Program-made: the position numbers and the translations under genes | Source of the DNA: a virus | Direction: 5' to 3' (one strand) | IMG/VR virus record: IMGVR_UViG_3300026457_000038 | Coordinates: 1 to 36,305 of that record | DNA: 36,305 nt | In this document: positions 1,418 to 35,909 of the stretch, one piece after another | Layout of the letters: every line of letters starts with the position of its first letter | Position numbering within the stretch: the first letter of the stretch is position 1 | Notes under the pieces: model-generated | Told to the model about the DNA's origin: nothing | The model's database searches: none | What the model saw: only the letters and a program-made list of their open reading frames with translations

Positions 1418-1798
1418 TTATCCTTTCTTTTTTCTTCTTGCTAATTTTCTTAATGTTTGAGCTAGTCTTGCTCTCTTACCCAACTTGCCACCTTTTTTTG
1501 CTGCAGCAGCAAGTTTTTTGGCAGGGATATTCTTTTCCTCAGGAACTCCTAAAGATTTACTCAATGCTCCTGGTTTTTTAATAGCTTTTTGAATCCATTT
1601 AGTAGCTTCTAAAATATCATGTATGTCTTTTTCAGTTAATTCATTTGCTACCATCCAATTTGCTTCATCTAAAGTAGAGGCATAACCCTCTAGACAAAGG
1701 AATTCGATTACAGTATTATAAATGTCTAATTCTTCTTCAATTGAAGCATAAATTTGTTGATATGCTTCCGATAAATCTTTAAACTCTTGATAATTCAT
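1418..1798 (-). CDS. Putative internal head protein with prohead-protease-like N-terminus (126 aa)
   Basis: The N-terminus MNYQEFKDLSE-AYQQIY resembles a T4 capsid-targeting peptide and contains LSE before Ala, matching the (L/I)xE cleavage rule of the T4 gp21 protease. Residues about 31-65 are an acidic helical module (EFLCLEGY, then TLDEAN) that recurs in the two large proteins upstream. The tail from about residue 70 is strongly basic (PAKKLAAAAKKGGKLGKRAR, then KLARRKKKG), suited to binding DNA inside the head. It is a separate late gene: ATAAATA lies 26 bases before the ATG and a terminator of the previous gene lies upstream. The family is known only as cyanophage hypothetical; packaging is inferred from sequence. 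Confidence 0.65.
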   Translation of the reverse strand: MNYQEFKDLSEAYQQIYASIEEELDIYNTVIEFLCLEGYASTLDEANWMVANELTEKDIHDILEATKWIQKAIKKPGALSKSLGVPEEKNIPAKKLAAAAKKGGKLGKRARLAQTLRKLARRKKKG

Positions 1799-4839: not shown

Positions 4840-5089
4840 TTTTAAACATTAATAACATACAAGTTTCATAAAACTCATCAAAAGTCTTCATTTCTTTTAA
4901 AGAATTTTTTTCTTTGATCCACTCATCTGGAGTTTTATGATGTTTATCTTTAAAAGAGAAATGAAGTTCCTTTGCAGTAACATCATACTTTCTCATAATA
5001 CGTCTCATTAGTGAATCAATAGATGAGTATGAAACCTTCCTAAGTTTAGGAAGGTTTTTTTCAAGTTCACTTACTGCATTATCGATCAT
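4829..5089 (-). CDS. Small cyanophage structural-type protein (86 aa)
   Basis: The sequence contains SIDSLMRRIMRKYDVTAKEL and KHHKTPDEWIKEK, a segment I recognise as recurrent in T4-like cyanophage late proteins, where it is often fused to larger proteins (established pattern, no known activity). It is predicted helical and basic in the first half. The ATG overlaps the stop of the HAD-containing gene (ATGA), so translation is likely coupled. It may be a detached C-terminal module of that neighbour. Function unknown. Confidence 0.75.
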   Translation of the reverse strand: MIDNAVSELEKNLPKLRKVSYSSIDSLMRRIMRKYDVTAKELHFSFKDKHHKTPDEWIKEKNSLKEMKTFDEFYETCMLLMFKNEI

Positions 5090-6957
5090 TTTTGAACTTC
5101 TCTTTGTTCAATAAATTTTTTCCACTGTTCATAAGTAGTTTCTTTTTTATTCTCTACAATTACTTCTTCTGAAATAACCTCTTCTTCAACTTCTTCTTGA
5201 ATATCATCTTCACCAATAAATGTTTTCCAATACTCATATGGTGTTAGTTGTTCGTCATCCTCTTCGATTGTATTTTCAGTTCTATTTGTAAATCTAGATA
5301 CGTATCCAAATTTTAAAGCAGATTCATCTTCTACAGATTCTGAAAGTAATCCAATACTCTGTGAAATTAAATCATCTACATAATCCTCTTCAAATGTATC
5401 TACTAAATCCAATGCAGAATCTAGATTTTCTACATAACCCTGATCTACAAGTTGCTCTAGAATAAAATCTAAAATAACTTCAAATTCTTCCTTAGTTGCT
5501 TGATAAGAACGTGACACGACTTTACCCTCCTTATTTGGTTTTACCATGTGAGTTTTAACTTTTGGACCAGATACTGTTTCTTTATTGGCCTTTTCCATTG
5601 CTTTATGCACTTTTGCCGCATCATCATACATATGACCTTTTTTAGTACCTGCTTTCTTCATTAAACCATGAAGGATGGTTTTTTTCTTTTCACCAATGTC
5701 ACCACCTTCTACATTTCCTGCACGATGGACATGAACATAATTTTTTCCACCTTTTTCAATATTAATACCGTGTTTTTTCAAGTGTTTTGAAAAGGTTTTT
5801 TGATCATCCATATCACCACGAGCAGTAATGATATGAACGTTTTTACCTTGCTTTACTTGCTTCTTTAACTTTTTGATAATTCCTTTATTAGGTTTAGCTG
5901 ATTTTGTAAAGACTTTAGAACTACGGAATTCACCAAAGTCATAAGAATGTCCTTTTGGAAGTTTGTGAGTATTAAACTCTTGATTAGTGAGACTCTGTAC
6001 TCTCTTTCCTTTATCATCTTTTACATGAACTTTTACTTTTGAATGGTCATGACCAAACAAAGTTTCGTCCATATCGTAAGCATGAACTGCACCACCTTTT
6101 TTCTTTTTACCTTGATTTTGTTCTCTTCTTTCAGTTCTTGAAAGTTTTTTCTCTTCTAAGGTTTCACCATCATAATCAATTGATTGCTTTAATTGATTTA
6201 ATTGTGAAGAATATCTCTCACCACCAATAGGTGAAGTTTTTCTTGCTTTATCAATTGTAGAATCTACTTTTTTCTTTGCTGCCTCCATGCCCTTGCTTGC
6301 TAGATAACCTCCAAGTGCAGCAGCACCTGCACGAAGTCCTAATCCGACCAGTGGATTCTCATCAAGTTGTTCACCTTCTGGTTCAAATGAGTTTGCCATT
6401 GCTTGCTTACGGATAGTTGCAAAATATACTTGCTTTCCTTTTTCTTCCCCATATTGATCAATCATACTTTTCTTCATTCCACTATCATCATATTTACCTT
6501 TAAGTCTTTTCTCCTTTCTAACTTCAGAAGGAGTCATTTCTCTTTCAAGCATAATATCTTCTTCAATATGATCGTGCTCACCACTCTCAATATAAGTTGA
6601 TGCTGAATCTAAATAATCTGCTGCTCTCGTAATTTTAGATTGCACCCAAGCTTCAATATTACCTTCACCTTTTAATTTTTTACGAAGTTTTTTAACTGCA
6701 CCATCAATTTTATGAAGTTCAGTTCGAGCCATTGAGTACTCATGATCCTTTTCTTCGATTTGAATACCCTTCTTAGTTTTTAAAAACTTAGGAAGTTGAG
6801 GTCCCGATTTTTTTGCTCTTTCCTTTCTTCTACGTGCAAGTTCTTCATCTGCCTTTTTGGCAAATTCCTTCTGTCCAGAAATATCAGGATGTTCTGATGC
6901 AATACCTTCTGAATAAACCTGAAGATAAGCTTCGTAAATATTTTGTGATTTATCCAT
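5086..6957 (-). CDS. Virion-associated protein with embedded HAD-phosphatase-like domain
   Basis: I chose the ATG at 6957 (MDKSQNIYEAYLQVYSE). The earlier in-frame ATG at 6996 abuts the nrdB terminator and precedes the late promoter at 6987-6981. Numbering from 6957, residues 71-130 contain AWVQSKITRAADYL, common in T4-like phages. A Gly/Ala-rich segment lies near 202-220. Residues about 289-450 hold HAD motifs: I, YDMDETLF with Asp295 and Asp297; II, HIITARG with Thr378; IV, MYDDAAKVH with Asp445 and Asp446. HAD proteins usually remove phosphate. An acidic helical module near 495-535 (QGYVENLDSALDLVD) matches modules in the 813- and 126-residue proteins. Protease-like sites include IYE-A at 7-9 and LDE-N. 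The tail is acidic and repeats YExWKxFI. The role inside a virion protein is unknown. Confidence 0.75.
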   Translation of the reverse strand: MDKSQNIYEAYLQVYSEGIASEHPDISGQKEFAKKADEELARRRKERAKKSGPQLPKFLKTKKGIQIEEKDHEYSMARTELHKIDGAVKKLRKKLKGEGNIEAWVQSKITRAADYLDSASTYIESGEHDHIEEDIMLEREMTPSEVRKEKRLKGKYDDSGMKKSMIDQYGEEKGKQVYFATIRKQAMANSFEPEGEQLDENPLVGLGLRAGAAALGGYLASKGMEAAKKKVDSTIDKARKTSPIGGERYSSQLNQLKQSIDYDGETLEEKKLSRTERREQNQGKKKKGGAVHAYDMDETLFGHDHSKVKVHVKDDKGKRVQSLTNQEFNTHKLPKGHSYDFGEFRSSKVFTKSAKPNKGIIKKLKKQVKQGKNVHIITARGDMDDQKTFSKHLKKHGINIEKGGKNYVHVHRAGNVEGGDIGEKKKTILHGLMKKAGTKKGHMYDDAAKVHKAMEKANKETVSGPKVKTHMVKPNKEGKVVSRSYQATKEEFEVILDFILEQLVDQGYVENLDSALDLVDTFEEDYVDDLISQSIGLLSESVEDESALKFGYVSRFTNRTENTIEEDDEQLTPYEYWKTFIGEDDIQEEVEEEVISEEVIVENKKETTYEQWKKFIEQREVQK

Positions 6958-12558: not shown

Positions 12559-13353
12559 TCATGAAACAGTTAATGTAGCAAATGAAGACGTTACTGAAAC
12601 ATCACCACTAGTAATAACGACACGATAACGATATCCGTTATTTGCAGTTCCATTATTAGTAATGTTTACACTGGAGTTAGTTGCTCCAGCAATGTCAGCA
12701 TAAGTCGATCCACCTGCAGTTGTAGACTTCCTCCACTGGTAAGATAGAGGTGCAGTTGAAGGAACTACAGTTGCAGCAACACTAAATGTTGCTGTTTGAG
12801 TGGTTCCTACTCCAACAGAAGCAGGTTGAGAAGTGATAGTGATATCTACATCTGGAAGTTTAGCATCATCTGCCGCATCACCTGCAGTAGCGTATGTTGT
12901 TGTGCCTGTTGTAATTCCAGACATTGCGACTAAAGTTTCAGTCTTTGTTCTCAGTTCACCACTACTATCTACATAAGTAATAATTCCAACCCATCCTGCA
13001 TGAGTAAGATAAGTATTTACTGCAATCTCACTCTCATCTACACCAAAAATTTGGTTTGCAGTGAAATGTGTATCATGCTGAGTGTATTTTGGTTTTTGTG
13101 AAATTACATAGTCACTTACACCAGAAATGGCAGCACCACTTAAAAATTGGGTAGTAGCAATAGAAATAGAAGTCTGTGAATTAATTTTATCAATGATTGC
13201 TTCACCAAAAGTTTTACCTGCACCAATACTAATCACATCACCAACAGAAGCTGCAAGGAAAGAAGTTCCAGATCCAGTAATTACTTTAGTTGCATAATTT
13301 ACTGATACTGAGCCAGGAGAGAATACATCGTCTTTATTACCCCAAAGTGCCAT
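12559..13353 (-). CDS. Virion decoration-type protein with C-terminal Ig-like domain
   Basis: The first 165 residues begin MALWGNKDDVFSPGSV and are rich in Ser, Thr, Gly and beta-formers, a start I recognise from cyanophage structural proteins. Residues about 168-264 form an Ig-like domain: ITSQPASVGVGTTQTATFSV, YQWRKS with the core Trp, and a closing GYRYRVVITSGDVSV segment. Ig-like domains on tailed phages are exposed on heads or tails (T4 Hoc is an example) and bind surfaces or carbohydrates weakly. A TATAAATA motif lies 31 bases before the ATG, directly after a terminator. Where it sits in the virion cannot be told from sequence. Confidence 0.85.
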   Translation of the reverse strand: MALWGNKDDVFSPGSVSVNYATKVITGSGTSFLAASVGDVISIGAGKTFGEAIIDKINSQTSISIATTQFLSGAAISGVSDYVISQKPKYTQHDTHFTANQIFGVDESEIAVNTYLTHAGWVGIITYVDSSGELRTKTETLVAMSGITTGTTTYATAGDAADDAKLPDVDITITSQPASVGVGTTQTATFSVAATVVPSTAPLSYQWRKSTTAGGSTYADIAGATNSSVNITNNGTANNGYRYRVVITSGDVSVTSSFATLTVS

Positions 13354-13656: not shown

Positions 13657-15129
13657 TTACCATTTAACTTTATTTGCCCAATAAGCCGCAGACATTTTTC
13701 CTTTTGCAATATTTTTTGCATGTCTTGTTTTAAATCGATTACGACGACTTGCATATTCTTTAGATTCACCTTTTCTCTTTGGAGAACCTTTGACTCCAAG
13801 TTGCCCAAAACGAATTAATTTTTCAGTTCCACCTTCACAAGCCTTTACGACATGAGATTTTCCAGTTTCACCAGAACCATGTGCTTCTGCTCTTGGTTTA
13901 TTACATTTCATCTCAGACTTTTTTGCTTCTGAGATTTCCATCTTTTCCCCAATAATTCCAGAATTCAACAAATAATTTTTTCTTTTCTTTTCACTCATAG
14001 CTTTTGAGACTATTGCTTTTACTAATTCTTTTTTTGGATCTTTTTCACAATCACATTCTTCGGTAACTTTTTTTTTCTTAATGTTTCTAGAGGGGTGAGA
14101 AACTCTACCACTATCTAAATTTCTTTCTGCCTCACCTCTTTTTCTTGCCCATGTTTGCATAAGAGCAGTTCCAGGTGACTCAATATGACCAGTTCTTACA
14201 AAATCTTTGGGAGATTGTCCCGCAGTTGCTGCCATAGTTGCTAAAAGAACTGCATTAGCAATTTTCTCTCTTTTTCTTGCTTCTACAATATCTAATTGCT
14301 CATCAATTTTTGGACCAATTACAATTTTATTTTTACCACTCATTACATCAATAATTTTTTCTTCATCACCATTTTTCATTTTCTTATTTTTTTTATTTTT
14401 TCTAAGTTCCCCTAGTTCATATAAAAATTCTTCTCTCCAACAAGAAAATTCTTCTCCAACAGATCTTTGTGCGATTAACTTTTTTTTAAGTTCTGGATTT
14501 TTTCTAGCTCTTTGTCCAAGTGTACCTGATGGTTTACTAGGACCTTGACCTGCAGGCAGTCTTCTTGCAATTGGTGCTTTACCTGCAGGGAGTTTTTCTC
14601 TCTCTGGAGTTCCGGACAATTTTTGAGGTTCCAATTTCTTTTTTTTCTTAGCAGACTTATATGCAATCGAATATGGTTTAGGTTCTCTAGTTCCAACTTT
14701 AGGTTTTTTAAGTCCTTCAGATTCTTGTTTTTTCTTTTCTGCTCTCCTTTTAACTGCAGCAACTCCCGCAGTAGCAAGTCCTTTTGCTAAAGATGCTGCA
14801 CTTCCCATTGCTTTTTGATAAGCAGTTGGATCTTTATCTTTATCACTAATTACTTCAGTTTTAATTTTACGAAGTGGTTCCTTTACACTTTCAGCACCCT
14901 TTTCAGTTTCTCTTTTTCTTCTTAATTTATCCTTTAATAATGACCTTTCCTTTTGCCACTCTAATCTTTCTCTCTTATATGCGAGATTTGCCTCGAGCTG
15001 CTTCCTATACCACTCGGAATCCTTTTTTTCCTTTTTATTTTCCTTTTGAGTTTTTTTAAGTTCCTTCTCACCAGCTCTTTTAATTTCAGCAGCCGTAGCC
15101 TCTAAAAAAATTCTTTCCTCAGAACTCAT
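13657..15129 (-). CDS. Lys-rich late protein with C-terminal DUF6321-like domain (490 aa)
   Basis: The first 170 residues are a highly charged helical region (KKTQKENKKEKKDSEWYRKQ). Residues about 175-215 are Pro/Lys-rich with two PAGKAPIARRLPAGQGP-like turns. The last 80 residues carry the strongest signal: a CNKPRAEAHGSGETGKSHVV segment, then KACEGG, KLIRFGQLGVKG, and RRNRFKTRHAKNIAKGKMSA before the final AYWANKVKW. I recognise this as the DUF6321-type domain of T4-like phages, of unknown activity. CDC at 371-373 and CNKP suggest possible metal sites. The gene overlaps its upstream neighbour as ATGA and shares its late promoter. A head-internal or DNA-binding role is inferred from charge and context. 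Confidence 0.8.
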   Translation of the reverse strand: MSSEERIFLEATAAEIKRAGEKELKKTQKENKKEKKDSEWYRKQLEANLAYKRERLEWQKERSLLKDKLRRKRETEKGAESVKEPLRKIKTEVISDKDKDPTAYQKAMGSAASLAKGLATAGVAAVKRRAEKKKQESEGLKKPKVGTREPKPYSIAYKSAKKKKKLEPQKLSGTPEREKLPAGKAPIARRLPAGQGPSKPSGTLGQRARKNPELKKKLIAQRSVGEEFSCWREEFLYELGELRKNKKNKKMKNGDEEKIIDVMSGKNKIVIGPKIDEQLDIVEARKREKIANAVLLATMAATAGQSPKDFVRTGHIESPGTALMQTWARKRGEAERNLDSGRVSHPSRNIKKKKVTEECDCEKDPKKELVKAIVSKAMSEKKRKNYLLNSGIIGEKMEISEAKKSEMKCNKPRAEAHGSGETGKSHVVKACEGGTEKLIRFGQLGVKGSPKRKGESKEYASRRNRFKTRHAKNIAKGKMSAAYWANKVKW

Positions 15130-16325
15130 TTTACTTTTTGCAAATCTTTCCTAAGTTTATTTAGGTTTTTAGGTACAGTTTCTTTAATGGGAATTTTAGT
15201 AAAAGATTTTATAGGTTGACCATGTACCATGCTTTGAAGTTTTTCCCTATACTTATCTGTCCCTACCTCATAAGTAGATTCTCTTACATTTTGCAACCAA
15301 GATTTAAACATTACCCCACTTTCTGTAACACAGATAAGGTAATTTGTACCTCTTCTTAAAACTCTTCCTGATAATCCGGTATTTAAATTTTCAACCATAG
15401 AACCTACAGGGTATAAATTATTTTTTTTATAATTTATACGCAAACTTTCCATATCAAGTTCGGGGGCAATCTTCCACAATTCTAAATCCTCACCAATTTT
15501 CATCGATTTAACTACAGAATCAAATAATTGCTGCTTATCTGCAGTTTTCATTTTAGGTGGAAGATTAGAAGCAAATGCTTCATAATTTCCTTCAGCAGCA
15601 GCAGTTCTCAATGCTACAGAAGATCCAGAACCTGCAGTATCACTATCAGGATCTCTAACAGATGCAGATAATACTTCTATATTATCGAAAGTATAATTCT
15701 GACCATCATTCCTATGAGCAAGACTTTGAAATTCTCCAAGTCTATCTGATCCAACTACAATTTTAACATTCTTATATCCATCTCCATACAAAGATTCAAG
15801 TACATCAAAAATTGTCTTAGAGTCTTCACTATCTAAAATATAATCTGCATACTCTGGATACATGATCTGCATAAATTGAACCTTCAAAGAAGGATTCAAT
15901 GGATTAGTTCCAGCATCTTGAATACGACTTGGGTAAATTCTATAGTCATATCCAGATTCTTTAGATCTAGCAAATCCAAATTTTAAAAGTTGCTCATGAT
16001 TCCTAGATGGTGGATTAAATCTTCCAAATACTACAACGATTCCATCGGATCCGTCCGACTGTTGCTGTTGTGCATCAGATTGTTGTTGAGAAACTTTATC
16101 AGTTACTGATATCTTTTGTTTAGTTTGAGGTTGAGATTCATCTCTAGGTCCCTTTCCACCTCTCCCTTTAAATACTTTTAATTTTCCACCAACAGTTTTT
16201 GCTACTAAATTTCCTTGATTGTCGTACCAATCTCCATGACCATTCCCCCTCAAACCCATTTGCTTGGCTTGAGATGATGCTACAGTTTCTAAAGCTTCTG
16301 ATATAAACTGACGAAAGGACTTCAT
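15126..16325 (-). CDS. Nucleotidyltransferase-like protein with capsid-targeting-like N-terminus
   Basis: The N-terminus MKSFRQFISE-A closely matches the T4 internal-protein capsid-targeting sequence (MKTYQEFIAE-A in IPIII), including the (I/L)xE cleavage site. Residues 21-52 (MGLRGNGHGDWYDNQGN) are a module I know from other cyanophage proteins. Residues 95-245 form a cytidylyl/adenylyltransferase-like fold: VVVFGRFNPPSRNH (97-110) at the nucleotide-binding turn, VVGSDR (190-195) and GSSVALR (234-240) as the C-terminal phosphate motif. The usual HxGH is SRNH here, so activity may be altered. Relatives transfer nucleotides to NMN, lipids or sugars; the substrate here is unknown. ATAAATA precedes the gene. 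Packaging is inferred. Confidence 0.8.
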   Translation of the reverse strand: MKSFRQFISEALETVASSQAKQMGLRGNGHGDWYDNQGNLVAKTVGGKLKVFKGRGGKGPRDESQPQTKQKISVTDKVSQQQSDAQQQQSDGSDGIVVVFGRFNPPSRNHEQLLKFGFARSKESGYDYRIYPSRIQDAGTNPLNPSLKVQFMQIMYPEYADYILDSEDSKTIFDVLESLYGDGYKNVKIVVGSDRLGEFQSLAHRNDGQNYTFDNIEVLSASVRDPDSDTAGSGSSVALRTAAAEGNYEAFASNLPPKMKTADKQQLFDSVVKSMKIGEDLELWKIAPELDMESLRINYKKNNLYPVGSMVENLNTGLSGRVLRRGTNYLICVTESGVMFKSWLQNVRESTYEVGTDKYREKLQSMVHGQPIKSFTKIPIKETVPKNLNKLRKDLQKVK

Positions 16326-16341: not shown

Positions 16342-16348
16342 TATTTAT
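16342..16348 (-). promoter_or_regulatory. Late promoter motif ATAAATA for the nucleotidyltransferase-like gene
   Basis: GATAAATAAT on the minus strand is 17 bases before the ATG at 16325 and overlaps the stop of the upstream gene. Confidence 0.6.
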
Positions 16349-17328
16349 CTTTTTCCTGGAATGGTGTTTCTAACTCTACTTTCTGGAACAAATGATATTT
16401 GATATCCTCTATATTGATTTCCTATTGTAATGCTAGCATTGGAAACTTTAGAGATTAACAAATAACAATTTTTTCTAACTTCTTCATAATCAATAGGAGT
16501 TCTAGAATATATTTTATTCACTATTATAGTAAGAGTTTTAGTATCTTGATTATATTTAAATGAAGATTTAGGTGATTTTGATGTAAAATCTGCACTAATA
16601 ATATAATCTACTCTATTTGACCCATCTCCACCAAAACAAAATTCTTTAACTTCAGATAAAGTAGAGATAACAGAAACTCCACCAGAACCTTTACCAAATG
16701 AAGCAGTAGGATTTACTAAATTGCTTATTATTTTTTTTGCAGTCTCTACTGCAGATGGACTACTATTTGCATATCCTTGCCAAGCTGGAAACTGAGACAT
16801 TTTTAAGGATATGTTATATTCTTTTCCTATTGTCTTAGTTATTTTTATATCCGACTTTTTATTCAATCCCCCAACTCTAGTAACACTTTTAACATCATCT
16901 ATAATGATACTTTTTCTACCATCACTTATAAGTATTTTATATTTACTTGAATCTTCATCTGCATAATCTTTATATTCATTAGATATGTCAGCAAACATTT
17001 CTTCATTTAAAAGCCAATTTTTTAGAATAATTGGTTCTAGTACTGGTTTTAAAAGTACTACTATATCCCGAGATCCACTATTTATTATCTCAGTTCTTCC
17101 TATTGTACTACCAGATCCTTTAGGATTGTAAATTATAAGATTAGAAGATTCTGGAAATTTCTCTCTTAAATAATCTCTAATTCCTCTTAGTTTATTTTTC
17201 CTTTCTTCTGATTTTTTTATTGAATCATTTGAGTATATAGTGATTTTATTAGCCTCTTTTACTATATTTGAGGAATACTCTGGTTTTTTTATTAATTCAT
17301 CGTAAACCTGATCTACAGTAATATCCAT
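16345..17328 (-). CDS. Hypothetical protein, possible PD-(D/E)xK-type nuclease (327 aa)
   Basis: The start is the ATG at 17328 (MDITVDQVYDELIKKPEYSS). A GGAGAG ribosome-binding site sits 10 bases upstream, inside the 3' arm of the mazG terminator; the earlier TTG in this frame lies in the hairpin loop. No family is recognised with confidence. Features: TIGRTEIINSGSRDIVVLLK near 75-95, and KKSDIKITKTIGKEYNISLK near 155-174. In the second, an Asp and a SLK triad spaced across two beta strands resemble the core of restriction-like (PD-(D/E)xK) nucleases. Next come MSQFPAWQG and a Gly-rich GKGSGGVSV. It stands between the replication operon and the late island. The nuclease idea is a weak motif-level inference. 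Confidence 0.7.
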   Translation of the reverse strand: MDITVDQVYDELIKKPEYSSNIVKEANKITIYSNDSIKKSEERKNKLRGIRDYLREKFPESSNLIIYNPKGSGSTIGRTEIINSGSRDIVVLLKPVLEPIILKNWLLNEEMFADISNEYKDYADEDSSKYKILISDGRKSIIIDDVKSVTRVGGLNKKSDIKITKTIGKEYNISLKMSQFPAWQGYANSSPSAVETAKKIISNLVNPTASFGKGSGGVSVISTLSEVKEFCFGGDGSNRVDYIISADFTSKSPKSSFKYNQDTKTLTIIVNKIYSRTPIDYEEVRKNCYLLISKVSNASITIGNQYRGYQISFVPESRVRNTIPGKR

Positions 17329-17857: not shown

Positions 17858-19230
17858 TAAAATTTAAATTCCTTAAATTTGCTTTTTTTATCATCCTCAA
17901 AATTATACTCTTCTTCTAAAGCTTCGTCAAGAGCTTGAATTTGAGCATTTTGTTCAACATCATACAATCTCATTTTATTCCTATCTACACCAACAACAAA
18001 TCTTTTAAATTTTGAAACATCATTATCACGATTTTTAATTTGTTTAAACATTACCTGACCAAGTTGATCAAGTTCTTCAGTTTTAATCATTGCGATAATC
18101 ATATCTACGGTAGCAACTGTACCAAAACTTTCTGAAGTATCAGTCATGTCTGGGTCAGTTGTACTGTAACCACTACGAGTAGTTTGAGTTGAACTGAACA
18201 CTGGTACATTATATTCAACAGCAAGGGCACGAAGTTCTTCAGAGATACTCTTAACGTAAGTGTAAGAGTTTACTGCTGAGTTATTCCTATACCTACTGGA
18301 TGCACAGATATTAAGATAGTCAACAAAAATTATATCAGGATGGAAATGCTTTTTAAGAGCAAGTTCATTGAGAAGAGATTTGAAATGACCTACATGAGCA
18401 GAAGAAGGTGGATATTCTTTAATGATCAACTTACCATGGGTTTTTTGTGAAAGTTTGACAATTTTATTCTCAAACTTTTCTTTTGATAATTTATCAATGT
18501 CTGTGATGTTAACATTCAAAAGATTAGCATCTATTCTTTGTGCGATTTTTTCTTCTGCCATTTCTAAAGTAATGTATAAAACATTTTTACCTTTGGATAG
18601 AAATCCAGATGCAAATGAGCACATTGCAAGTGATTTACCTACATTAGGACCTGCAAGAATCAATGATAATGTTTTCTTTGAAAGTCCACCATTAGTAATT
18701 CTATTAAAGTAATCTAAATCAAAAGGAAGTTTTTCTTCAACTCTAGTATAATAATCATATCGTTTAGAGTAATCCTCAATGAAATCGTGTCCGATATGCT
18801 CATCGAAAGATACAGAGAGTGCCTCCTGAAGAATTCCAGGAATAGCATCTCTACCTTTCTTTTCATCCTGCCCATCAGCAATCTTGATGCTTTCCATGAG
18901 TGCAAGGTAAATTGCACGATCTCTACACCAAGATTCTGTAGTGTCCATCAACCACTGAAGGTCTACATGAACATTATCCAGATTAGATACATAATCACAA
19001 ATAATTTTATAAGTTTCTTCTGAAATATCAGTTCTTTTTTCTGCCTCAATTAAGACAACTTCTTTTGTTGCCATATCTTCATAAGAAACAATAAACTTAC
19101 TTATTTCTTCAAAGACAACACGTTCATGTTTATTCTCAAAATAATCAGGGTTTATGAAAGGCAATACTTTTCTACAGTATTCACTGTTGAAAAGTAAATT
19201 ACGAAGAATAGTAGTCTCAACTCTTTCCAT
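17857..19230 (-). CDS. 41: Replicative DNA helicase, T4 gp41 (DnaB family)
   Basis: The ring helicase unwinds the fork 5' to 3' and recruits the primase. The first 150 residues are the helical N-terminal domain. The RecA-like motor starts about residue 170 with GGLSKKTLSLILAGPNVGKS (Walker A at 194-200). A Walker B-like HPDIIFVDYLNICASSRYR and a DnaB-type segment FSSTQTTRSGY follow. The tail is acidic then basic (EEEYNFEDDKKSKFKEF). At 457 residues it is close to T4 gp41. It lies 57 bases after uvsX and overlaps mazG. The gap shows only a weak 5-bp hairpin and no clear promoter. Confidence 0.95.
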   Translation of the reverse strand: MERVETTILRNLLFNSEYCRKVLPFINPDYFENKHERVVFEEISKFIVSYEDMATKEVVLIEAEKRTDISEETYKIICDYVSNLDNVHVDLQWLMDTTESWCRDRAIYLALMESIKIADGQDEKKGRDAIPGILQEALSVSFDEHIGHDFIEDYSKRYDYYTRVEEKLPFDLDYFNRITNGGLSKKTLSLILAGPNVGKSLAMCSFASGFLSKGKNVLYITLEMAEEKIAQRIDANLLNVNITDIDKLSKEKFENKIVKLSQKTHGKLIIKEYPPSSAHVGHFKSLLNELALKKHFHPDIIFVDYLNICASSRYRNNSAVNSYTYVKSISEELRALAVEYNVPVFSSTQTTRSGYSTTDPDMTDTSESFGTVATVDMIIAMIKTEELDQLGQVMFKQIKNRDNDVSKFKRFVVGVDRNKMRLYDVEQNAQIQALDEALEEEYNFEDDKKSKFKEFKF

Positions 19231-34499: not shown

Positions 34500-35909
34500 T
34501 CACATGAGGTTCTTAACAAGAGTTCTCTTGTAGTAGGTGTTGGAGTTTCTCTGGAGTCTTCCAAGACCTTGGTTAAGACCTTCAGCAAATGGGTTAGCAA
34601 CCATGCCATAACGAGTCTTAAATCCAATTTTTGGTTGGAAGGACTGCTCACCAACGGCACGAACCATTTGGAGAGGAACATATGGGCAATAGAAGAGACC
34701 TGCATCGTAAGGTGAGGTTCCCTTGTAACCAGCAACATAGAACTGGGTGTTGCTATTGTTTGCAGAATATGGGTCGATATAAACCTTATACTTACCTTGG
34801 AGAACACCTGCAAAAGTATTACCGGTGTCATCTACCTGGAGGTTTGCGTTGAGTGCTGGGGTGTAATCCAGGATTCCTGCGTGAGACAGTGCTGAAGCAA
34901 CGTCTGCAGAGCAGAGAATCATGTTCCCCTTACCTCTACGAGTTCTTTGTGCAATCAGGTTGGCATCTCTTTCCATTTGGAAAATAAGACCTTTGAACTT
35001 CTCAACTGACCAACGACCGTTGGAGTCAACATCAAGGTCAAAGATACCAGGAGTTGCAACGTTATTTTGTGCACCAGGTTCTGCAATCATGTAGATGGTA
35101 CGAATAACTTCACGGTTGATCTCAGCAAGAATCTCAGTTGAGAGAATGTTTGCAAGTTCAGCCTCAGCATTCAGACCGTGAATTGCCTTCAGATCCTGAG
35201 CAAGCTCAAGACTGTATTCTGCTTTCAGAGCACGAGACTTAGCAGTAACGGATACACGCTCGATGCTAAGTGCCATCTCGTTGAAGAAGGTGCCAGCATC
35301 ATTGAGATCATTACCGAGACTTTCTGCCTCAGAAGTGCTCATTGCCTGACCAACATTGTACTCACCGAGAGGTGCAGAAGTTGGGTTGAGAAGACCTGGG
35401 TTTGAACCAACCTGTGCAGTGGTTCCGAAACCAACGTTACCGTTAGTCCAACCATTGTCATTGTTTCTGCCAGCATTCTGACCAGAGAAGGTGGTATCTA
35501 CTTCATTGTAGAATGTTTCATTACCTTGTGGGTTGGTATAACGTGATCTCATTGCGAAAATGAGACTTACAGGACCGTTCATTGGTTGAACACCTGCTAG
35601 GTCATATGCAACAAGGTTAGGCATTGAACGTCTGATCAGTGAGATCAGAACTGGGTCGAAACCTGCTACTGGACCTGCTGCGGAAGCACCGTAGCTGAAA
35701 CCTGCTGCACCTGATCCTGCGGGATCAGTGTTCATGGTTGGGGTTGCTTCTGTAAGAAATTCTCTCTCTTCTCTAAGAGCTTTTTCTTGGTTCTCTAACA
35801 GGATAGCAGTTACCGCTCTACGATGTGGATCTTTGATTTCATTAAGACCATTGTAGTCAAGGAGTGGTGCCCACTTTTCCTGCAGCTGTTCTGCATTGAA
35901 CATTTGCAT
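34500..35909 (-). CDS. 23: Major capsid protein, T4 gp23
   Basis: gp23 forms the hexamers of the head. The ATG at 35909 has AGAGG eight bases upstream. Residues 1-54 are the delta domain (MQMFNAEQLQEKWAPLLDYN and RRAVTAILLENQEKAL) ending FLTE-A, which matches the (L/I)xE site cut by the prohead protease (T4 removes 65 residues). The mature part follows the T4-like fold: DPVLISLIRRSMPNLVAYDL, AGVQPMNGPVSLIFAMRSRY, a Gly/Asn-rich insertion and RGKGNMILCSADVASAL. At 469 residues it is the typical cyanophage length. No perfect late motif precedes it; the nearest is AGATAATAAA near 35950. Confidence 0.97.
   Translation of the reverse strand: MQMFNAEQLQEKWAPLLDYNGLNEIKDPHRRAVTAILLENQEKALREEREFLTEATPTMNTDPAGSGAAGFSYGASAAGPVAGFDPVLISLIRRSMPNLVAYDLAGVQPMNGPVSLIFAMRSRYTNPQGNETFYNEVDTTFSGQNAGRNNDNGWTNGNVGFGTTAQVGSNPGLLNPTSAPLGEYNVGQAMSTSEAESLGNDLNDAGTFFNEMALSIERVSVTAKSRALKAEYSLELAQDLKAIHGLNAEAELANILSTEILAEINREVIRTIYMIAEPGAQNNVATPGIFDLDVDSNGRWSVEKFKGLIFQMERDANLIAQRTRRGKGNMILCSADVASALSHAGILDYTPALNANLQVDDTGNTFAGVLQGKYKVYIDPYSANNSNTQFYVAGYKGTSPYDAGLFYCPYVPLQMVRAVGEQSFQPKIGFKTRYGMVANPFAEGLNQGLGRLQRNSNTYYKRTLVKNLM

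Follow-up and report, generated by a model that had tools for sequence, protein, structure and literature searches.

A predicted nucleotidyltransferase-fold protein of a probable T4-like cyanophage bears a leader resembling the T4 capsid-targeting sequence

The internal proteins of bacteriophage T4 form a cargo that is packed in the head and injected, and we describe here a gene whose product appears to carry a similar address. The gene lies on the minus strand, at 15126-16325, of a 36,305-nucleotide stretch of viral DNA (IMG/VR record IMGVR_UViG_3300026457_000038, positions 1 to 36,305; this whole stretch is called the window below). Its 399-residue product belongs to the family PHROG_395 or T4-GC190 (E 1.5e-74 over residues 88-378 in a profile search), named 'cytitidyltransferase' in cyanophage records. 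A preliminary description, made from the letters alone and giving no strand, had noted the open reading frame (ORF), its start MKSFRQFISE-A and the stretches GRFNPPSRNH, GSDR and GSSVALR. All of these are present, and a plus-strand reading is ruled out by stops all along the frame.

Members of this family have already been met in virions. As given in the relevant passages of the respective papers, T4-GC190 was detected by mass spectrometry in S-SM1 virions (PMC3037559), the nicotinamide mononucleotide adenylyltransferase (NMNAT) ORF91 in S-SCSM1 virions, with S-CBWM1 as cited there (PMC9602691), and ORF154 in S-CREM2 virions by three peptides (PMC10665884). A virion-carried NMNAT-like protein acting early was likewise proposed in 2022 and 2023 in sections of these papers (PMC9602691, PMC10665884), so that the 'new kind of cyanophage effector' announced in the preliminary description had already been proposed in print. 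As far as the sequences indicate, the new elements would be the address logic (a shared leader and a late motif) and the remodelled active site of one clade, the family itself being ordinary. No report of a capsid-targeting sequence or shared leader in cyanophages was found in open-licence PMC full text; a single paper there combines the terms 'capsid targeting sequence' and 'cyanophage', and in it 'cyanophage' appears only within the title of a reference. None was found there that mentions cyanophages along with the misspelt family name 'cytitidyltransferase'.

We propose that the protein is an internal head protein of a T4-like cyanophage that is made late, addressed by its leader, cleaved and delivered, an explanation that we regard as probable when taken whole. 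The 399-residue protein would be expressed late from its own T4-type late promoter, and a helix of residues 1-10 would dock it to the prohead scaffold core, as the T4 capsid-targeting sequence does. The virus's own gp21-type prohead protease would then cut after Glu10, so that the mature protein begins at Ala11, while the GHGDWYD module that follows the leader may be a second, shared element for packaging or for contact with DNA. The protein would enter the host along with the DNA, where its nucleotidyltransferase-fold domain would bind or convert a nucleotide, most plausibly in NAD-type metabolism. Packaging in the head is the most secure of these steps and is very likely, with virion detection coming from relatives; cleavage after Glu10 is probable, and delivery into the host only a little less so. 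Action on a nucleotide of the NAD pathway is a tentative guess.

The gene has the following parts:
15126..16325, minus strand: whole gene, 399 residues (ATG 16325-16323, stop 15126-15128)
16296..16325, minus strand: capsid-targeting-like leader MKSFRQFISE, residues 1-10 (predicted helix 4-10; predicted protease cut after Glu10)
16167..16286, minus strand: 'GHGDWYD' module, residues 14-53, about 40 residues (helix and short strands)
16047..16166, minus strand: variable, disordered linker, residues 54-93
15498..16046, minus strand: predicted HIGH-superfamily nucleotidyltransferase fold, residues 94-276
15996..16007, minus strand: altered HxGH motif SRNH, residues 107-110 (TxGH in most relatives)
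15276..15470, minus strand: C-terminal domain, residues 286-350 (a five-stranded unit at 310-349; seen elsewhere without a nucleotidyltransferase)
16342..16349, minus strand: T4-type late-promoter-like motif GATAAATA, 16 nucleotides (nt) before the ATG

The leader and the proteins that carry it

T4 IPII and IPIII both start MKTYQEFIAEA (T4 record NC_000866). Six of the 11 residues of the window leader are identical to those of IPIII, including positions 7, 8 and 10, and position 4 is aromatic in both (Phe in the window, Tyr in T4). For IPIII, targeting is ascribed mainly to residues 4 and 7 and processing to residues 8 and 10, according to the portion of PMC9026906 that treats this signal; with F4, F7, I8 and E10, the window leader agrees with IPII and IPIII at all four key positions. 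It also has a similar length of about ten residues and an acidic cut site. The T4 parallel drawn in the preliminary description therefore stands for the leader but not for Alt, which starts MELITELFDE and was rejected as the nearest T4 leader, IPII and IPIII being nearer. The likeness ends at the cargo, which in the window is a nucleotidyltransferase-fold protein with the shared GHGDWYD module, and for which neither an anti-restriction nor an ADP-ribosyl activity is suggested, unlike the T4 internal proteins and Alt. A loose form of the leader motif, scanned over T4, recovers IPII and IPIII. As a separate observation, the hypothetical T4 protein gp61.1 (18966-19130) starts MKTFKEFIKED, which also resembles a capsid-targeting leader.

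A processing site of the same kind as that of the leader is found in the major capsid protein of the window (in T4 gp23, LTE/A at 63-66):
34500..35909, minus strand: major capsid protein gp23, named by sequence (FLTE/A at residues 51-55)
The gp21-type prohead protease (PF03420) was detected in 14 of 19 records, one of which is the 284-kb contig of the virus itself (E 1.6e-34).

The leader is maintained among the close relatives of the protein. The N-terminus is present at 20 of 21 clade loci (found with peptides other than the leader; all one clade, and two of them the same virus), and all 20 start MK[ST]F..F[IF].EA. Mean identity between clade members is 73% for the leader, 74% for the module, 62% for the enzyme domain and 26% for the linker. 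The corresponding ratios of non-synonymous to synonymous change (pN/pS) are 0.31, 0.27, 0.41 and 0.83, over 114 pairs, many with saturated synonymous sites and some of them near-copies. Leader and module are thus at least as conserved as the enzyme domain; leader conservation was measured on the clade-locus and named-phage sequences, since alignment rows from L026 onward had been chosen by the leader pattern. Among named phages, 9 of 14 proteins with the nucleotidyltransferase domain carry the leader.

The same leader heads many other proteins. A degenerate back-translated leader pattern matched at least 120 stretches in IMG/VR, compared with 12 for a control with swapped F and E codons, and an ORF of at least 60 residues was opened by 119 of the 124 leader matches listed as against none of the 12 control matches. 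With the leader removed, these 119 cargoes (the five ORFs below 60 residues were left out, and all counts describe a sample of IMG/VR) fell into 34 BLAST clusters among the matches listed, showing that the leader is separable from its cargo. The largest cluster is the nucleotidyltransferase family, with 58 of the 119. Pfam scans of 16 cargoes gave five above cut-off, namely a GNAT acetyltransferase, a DPBB lytic transglycosylase, DUF6267, DUF5661 and a nucleotidyltransferase fused to a zeta-toxin-like kinase. Since one leader sits on so many unrelated virus proteins, it may mark those that enter the host with the infecting virus.

The module can also be found apart from the enzyme: it occurs without a nucleotidyltransferase in S-CREM2 ORF12 and ORF14, for instance, and likewise in the S-CRM01 kinase; a putative protein kinase is present in S-CRM01 virions according to a passage of PMC10665884. 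In L052 (3797-4228), leader, module and C-terminal domain are joined without the nucleotidyltransferase domain. Compared with the window protein, the S-CREM2 virion proteins ORF6 (a SAM lyase), ORF14 (a kinase) and ORF12 (Cas9-like) have the same leader, and ORF12 and ORF14 the module as well, but their catalytic domains are unrelated to the window enzyme. In the annotation of ORF12 the leader-like stretch starts at residue 17, and 'Cas9' is the record's own name, with no Pfam match.

Some further leader-bearing proteins were seen in passing. A scan of the 284-kb contig gave eight ORF-level matches, of which by eye only two look real, the 399-residue gene and one just outside the window at G003:111426-112034 (plus strand); the latter has the leader-like start KTFSEFIYE and a continuation that by eye resembles cargo L083. 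A conserved leader-bearing protein of about 106 residues (MKTFKQFMSESVNISGDF in S-SCSM1) occurs at S-SCSM1 44215-44535, L024 12451-12771 and in L075; in S-SCSM1 it is flanked by virion-labelled genes and itself carries no virion label. The leader is followed by a YHGT stretch in L116 (1085-1591) and L043 (3736-4149), and by HYTS in L065 (1211-1858, minus strand). We take these stretches to recall ADP-ribosyltransferase folds, although Pfam scans of the cargoes gave no profile match for the three.

The virion-detected family members of S-SM1, S-SCSM1 and S-CREM2 start MKKFSAFLNEA, MKSFLQFLKEA and MKNFSSFLTEA, respectively. In S-CREM2 the leader lies within the first 16 residues of 5/52 virion proteins and 0/167 others (Fisher 6.5e-4), while a second form of the pattern gave 5/52 and 1/167, the extra one being the non-virion ORF175 (p 0.003). 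The five virion proteins are the SAM lyase ORF6 (PF23780), ORF13, the kinase ORF14, ORF136 and ORF154. Both p-values are optimistic, since the patterns were written after the S-CREM2 N-termini had been seen; an earlier form had found only ORF154 among the virion proteins. The family members of S-SM1 and S-SCSM1 have all the domains of the window protein in the same order and lie, like it, between mazG and gp61/nrdA, whereas S-CREM2 ORF154 is without the module and sits elsewhere, after a late sigma factor gene. The T4-like head address put forward in the preliminary description gains from the excess over the control pattern, the agreement with IPII and IPIII, the conservation of the leader and its enrichment in S-CREM2.

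Predicted fold and active site

An AlphaFold2 model built with 61 sequences reached a mean predicted local distance difference test score (pLDDT) of 78 and a predicted template modelling score (pTM) of 0.51. Block pLDDT was 87-89 over residues 21-50 in the module and 81-96 over residues 91-270, and fell below 50 at 54-90 in the linker. The predicted core matched PPAT, NadD and NMNAT equally well (Z 12.9, 12.7 and 12.7, a tie), and Foldseek related it to a plant nicotinate mononucleotide adenylyltransferase (E 9.9e-6). The model thus supports a HIGH-superfamily nucleotidyltransferase fold for residues 94-276, in keeping with the nucleotidyltransferase-like domain first read from the motifs. Against the nicotinamide or nicotinate mononucleotide adenylyltransferases and PPAT, the fold extends over residues 93-279 with Z 11.5-12.9 and 9-19% identity among the matches listed; the final His of HxGH and the Arg of an ISSTxxR-like motif are retained, but HxGH itself is absent, and N- and C-terminal domains are added. 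No cytidylyltransferase chain was seen among the best 50 matches listed in each of two structure comparisons of the core, though cytidylyl transfer may still be the activity.

With the window protein as query, neither Pfam nor NCBIfam nor a single-sequence search of the PDB returned anything relevant. A 61-row profile against the PDB gave six weak matches (best E 0.077); two of these, 3gmi and 9rpk, align along the GxFNP..xH stretch, and two, 9rpk and 1f9a, are NMNATs. Pfam PF01467 was reached above cut-off by four of five other family members and not by the window protein or two clade-mates. In NCBIfam searches with relatives, the NadR and NadD models stayed far under cut-off, and one relative just passed the general domain model TIGR00125.

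The active site of the window clade has been remodelled. In the window protein HxGH is changed to SRNH, as previously described, with only the last His kept. His110 and Arg195 are invariant in the 61 sequences, and Gly109 is present in 46 of them (45 TxGH and one HLGH); the named phages S-CREM2, P-SSM2 and RaK2 read HKGH, HAGH and HLGH. The 13-member clade of the window has [SAG][KR][NSA]H in place of TxGH, so that compared with other members of the family it has lost the glycine as well as the lysines of three positions, and has a new basic residue at 108: positions 139, 140 and 238 are basic in 0% of the 13 clade members versus 87, 98 and 96% of 46 others, and position 108 in 100% versus 2%. 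The final His, NPP, the Arg of GSDR and R240 (Lys in 1/13) are retained. A second lineage, of two sequences, has SKEH; its lysines at 140 and 238 are gone, while Lys139 is retained. The tree requires two separate active-site changes; of 59 conserved positions, 13 and 22 are changed in the two lineages and 10 coincide (p 0.0014). This suggests that the remodelling was convergent, with some caution since both lineage stems are long branches.

Timing and genomic setting

The motif GATAAATA resembles the T4 late promoter, given as TATAAAT in the corresponding passage of PMC3037559. It stands 17-18 nt before the ATG in 9/9 clade members examined. Within the window, late motifs lie within 70 nt upstream of 6/37 gene starts, and none precedes a recognised replication gene. 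The six genes are the 399-residue gene, a tail-tube-like gp19, a homologue of protein 95, a protein-89-like gene and two long genes without recognised function. ATAAATA is not over-represented across the window (17 versus 21.5 expected), and only its placement is informative. In S-SCSM1 the motif precedes 17/47 virion-labelled and 2/71 other genes (p 1.7e-6), as counted on 47 of the 48 labelled genes (the paper counts 45) and on 71 of 234 non-virion coding sequences, from the plus strand of the first 98 kb. The corresponding figures for S-CREM2 are weaker, 10/52 and 13/167 (p 0.02). No late motif was found within 70 nt of the orthologues in P-SSM4, S-SM1 and P-SSM2, and that of P-TIM68 has one at an odd distance of 6 nt.

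Two neighbouring features complete the picture:
13657..15129, minus strand: downstream gene, 490 residues, Lys-rich, overlapping the 399-residue gene by 4 nt and probably co-transcribed with it
12559..13353, minus strand: head-type protein homologous to protein 95 of S-SCSM1, which is labelled virion (late-like motif TATAAATA, 30 nt before the gene)
A small protein at 1418-1798 (minus strand) is similar to the S-SCSM1 virion-labelled protein 89 and has a late-like motif 25 nt upstream. A long protein at 5086-6957 (minus strand) has one 23 nt before its likely ATG (6957, MDKSQ) and contains the stretch AYDMDETLFGHD, which we take to be HAD-like. The lone plus-strand ORF at 906-1337 appears to resemble a GIY-YIG-type endonuclease.

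The gene order uvsX - gp41 - mazG - 399-residue gene - gp61 - nrdA is common to the window, P-SSM4 and S-SM1 (window genes were named by sequence and order, mazG being confirmed by BLAST). The family is widespread: tblastn with the protein matched 531 of 50,697 phage records (the match takes in at least 80% of the query in 382), and 462 of the 531 carry the names Synechococcus, Prochlorococcus or Cyanophage. On the 284-kb IMG/VR contig (G003), positions 73515-109819 correspond to the window in reverse complement, and the copy of the gene there is 100% identical. Because this near-identical contig holds two Photo_RC genes (psbA/psbD type), the virus is very probably a cyanophage, as had been assumed before; no Photo_RC gene was found in a pelagiphage and a Methylophilales phage searched in parallel. 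Elsewhere, a psbA-type gene is split at profile position about 137-139 by an intron-like insert of about 0.87 kb in L006 (G005:32721-34491) and L007 (G006:13993-15763), and that of the L008 contig (G007:18858-19939) is broken near profile position 200, with internal stops.

Alternative explanations and significance

Several results weigh against a protein that is packaged by its leader. The leader is not enriched in S-SCSM1 (1/48 labelled virion genes versus 1/234 other coding sequences, p 0.31; pooled with S-CREM2, p 3.3e-4, likewise optimistic); the one among the 234 is a small gene with a virion-labelled gene on either side. Scanned over T4, the loose motif fails to find IPI and Alt, and it also matches the annotated starts of 61.1 and a-gt.5. 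The family protein went undetected in the S-PM2 virion study as summarized in a passage of PMC3037559, and is not named among 14 virion proteins of S-CREM1 in the portion of the source that lists them. The major capsid gene of the window has no late motif within 70 nt, and in IMG/VR the motif is only little commoner before leader genes (45/124 listed) than before other ORFs (184/678), a weak case for it as a general mark of such genes. Since the five other named-phage members (P-HM2, S-CAM3, HTVC008M, Melnitz and RaK2) have no strict leader, packaging is not universal in the family. Such leaderless members would suit a late-made, soluble auxiliary metabolic enzyme of the infected cell that co-purifies with virions, its N-terminus being an ordinary helix, and so would the position of the gene inside a replication and nucleotide-metabolism block, from mazG to gp61/nrdA. 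The authors of both recent proteomes themselves name lysate carry-over as a possibility in the passages concerned (PMC10665884, PMC9602691). We nevertheless consider such an enzyme unlikely, because the leader heads ORFs of 34 clusters, is consistent with the T4 signal in all four key residues, includes a cut site of the protease type and shows higher conservation than the catalytic domain. A structural role, as a scaffold-core or DNA-condensing internal protein in which the enzyme fold is incidental, would fit L052, where the rest of the protein occurs without that fold, but it is decidedly unlikely in view of the 531 phage records with the family and the invariance of His110 and Arg195.

A different question is whether the protein is still an enzyme. 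In the window clade the fold may be catalytically dead or re-purposed as a nucleotide binder (a sponge or sensor) with no transfer, which we regard as a real possibility if not the favoured one; it concerns the chemistry only and is compatible with packaging. The replaced TxGH, the shifted basic positions, the changes shared with the SKEH lineage and the missing PF01467 match all speak for it, but the retained final His, NPP, GSDR Arg and R240 do not, the second lineage still has Lys139, and the two stems are long. A simple pseudogene is argued against by the pN/pS of the enzyme domain, which indicates purifying selection, and the motif alone is not decisive on activity, since a plant NMNAT reads TFMH, without the first His and the Gly. 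The preliminary description had suggested that SRNH may mean a different substrate or activity. An altered activity gains weight from the remodelling in the clade, but judging from these residues loss of catalysis would be as possible as a new substrate. Rebuilding of NAD by phages against NAD-depleting defences is known, as described in passages of PMC12774641 and PMC13232231, and by analogy the 399-residue protein may be linked to it.

Returning to the proposed packaging and delivery, a broader and rather unlikely reading is that T4-like marine phages share a single loading code: a cleavable leader of eleven residues, often joined to a GHGDWYD adaptor, would arm their heads with exchangeable injected proteins. 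These would include nucleotidyltransferases, a SAM lyase, a kinase, a Cas9-like nuclease, an acetyltransferase, a lytic-transglycosylase-like protein and others. In the window clade and, separately, in the second lineage, the nucleotidyltransferase would then have ceased to be an enzyme and become a nucleotide binder that is delivered, for example a sponge for an NAD-derived immune signal before phage gene expression.

Taken together, the leader would provide a simple sequence rule for the proteins that a T4-like marine phage carries into its host. It would turn scattered proteomics detections, so far explained as possible carry-over, into a testable prediction, and would single out proteins that might serve as first-minute effectors against the defences of cyanobacteria.

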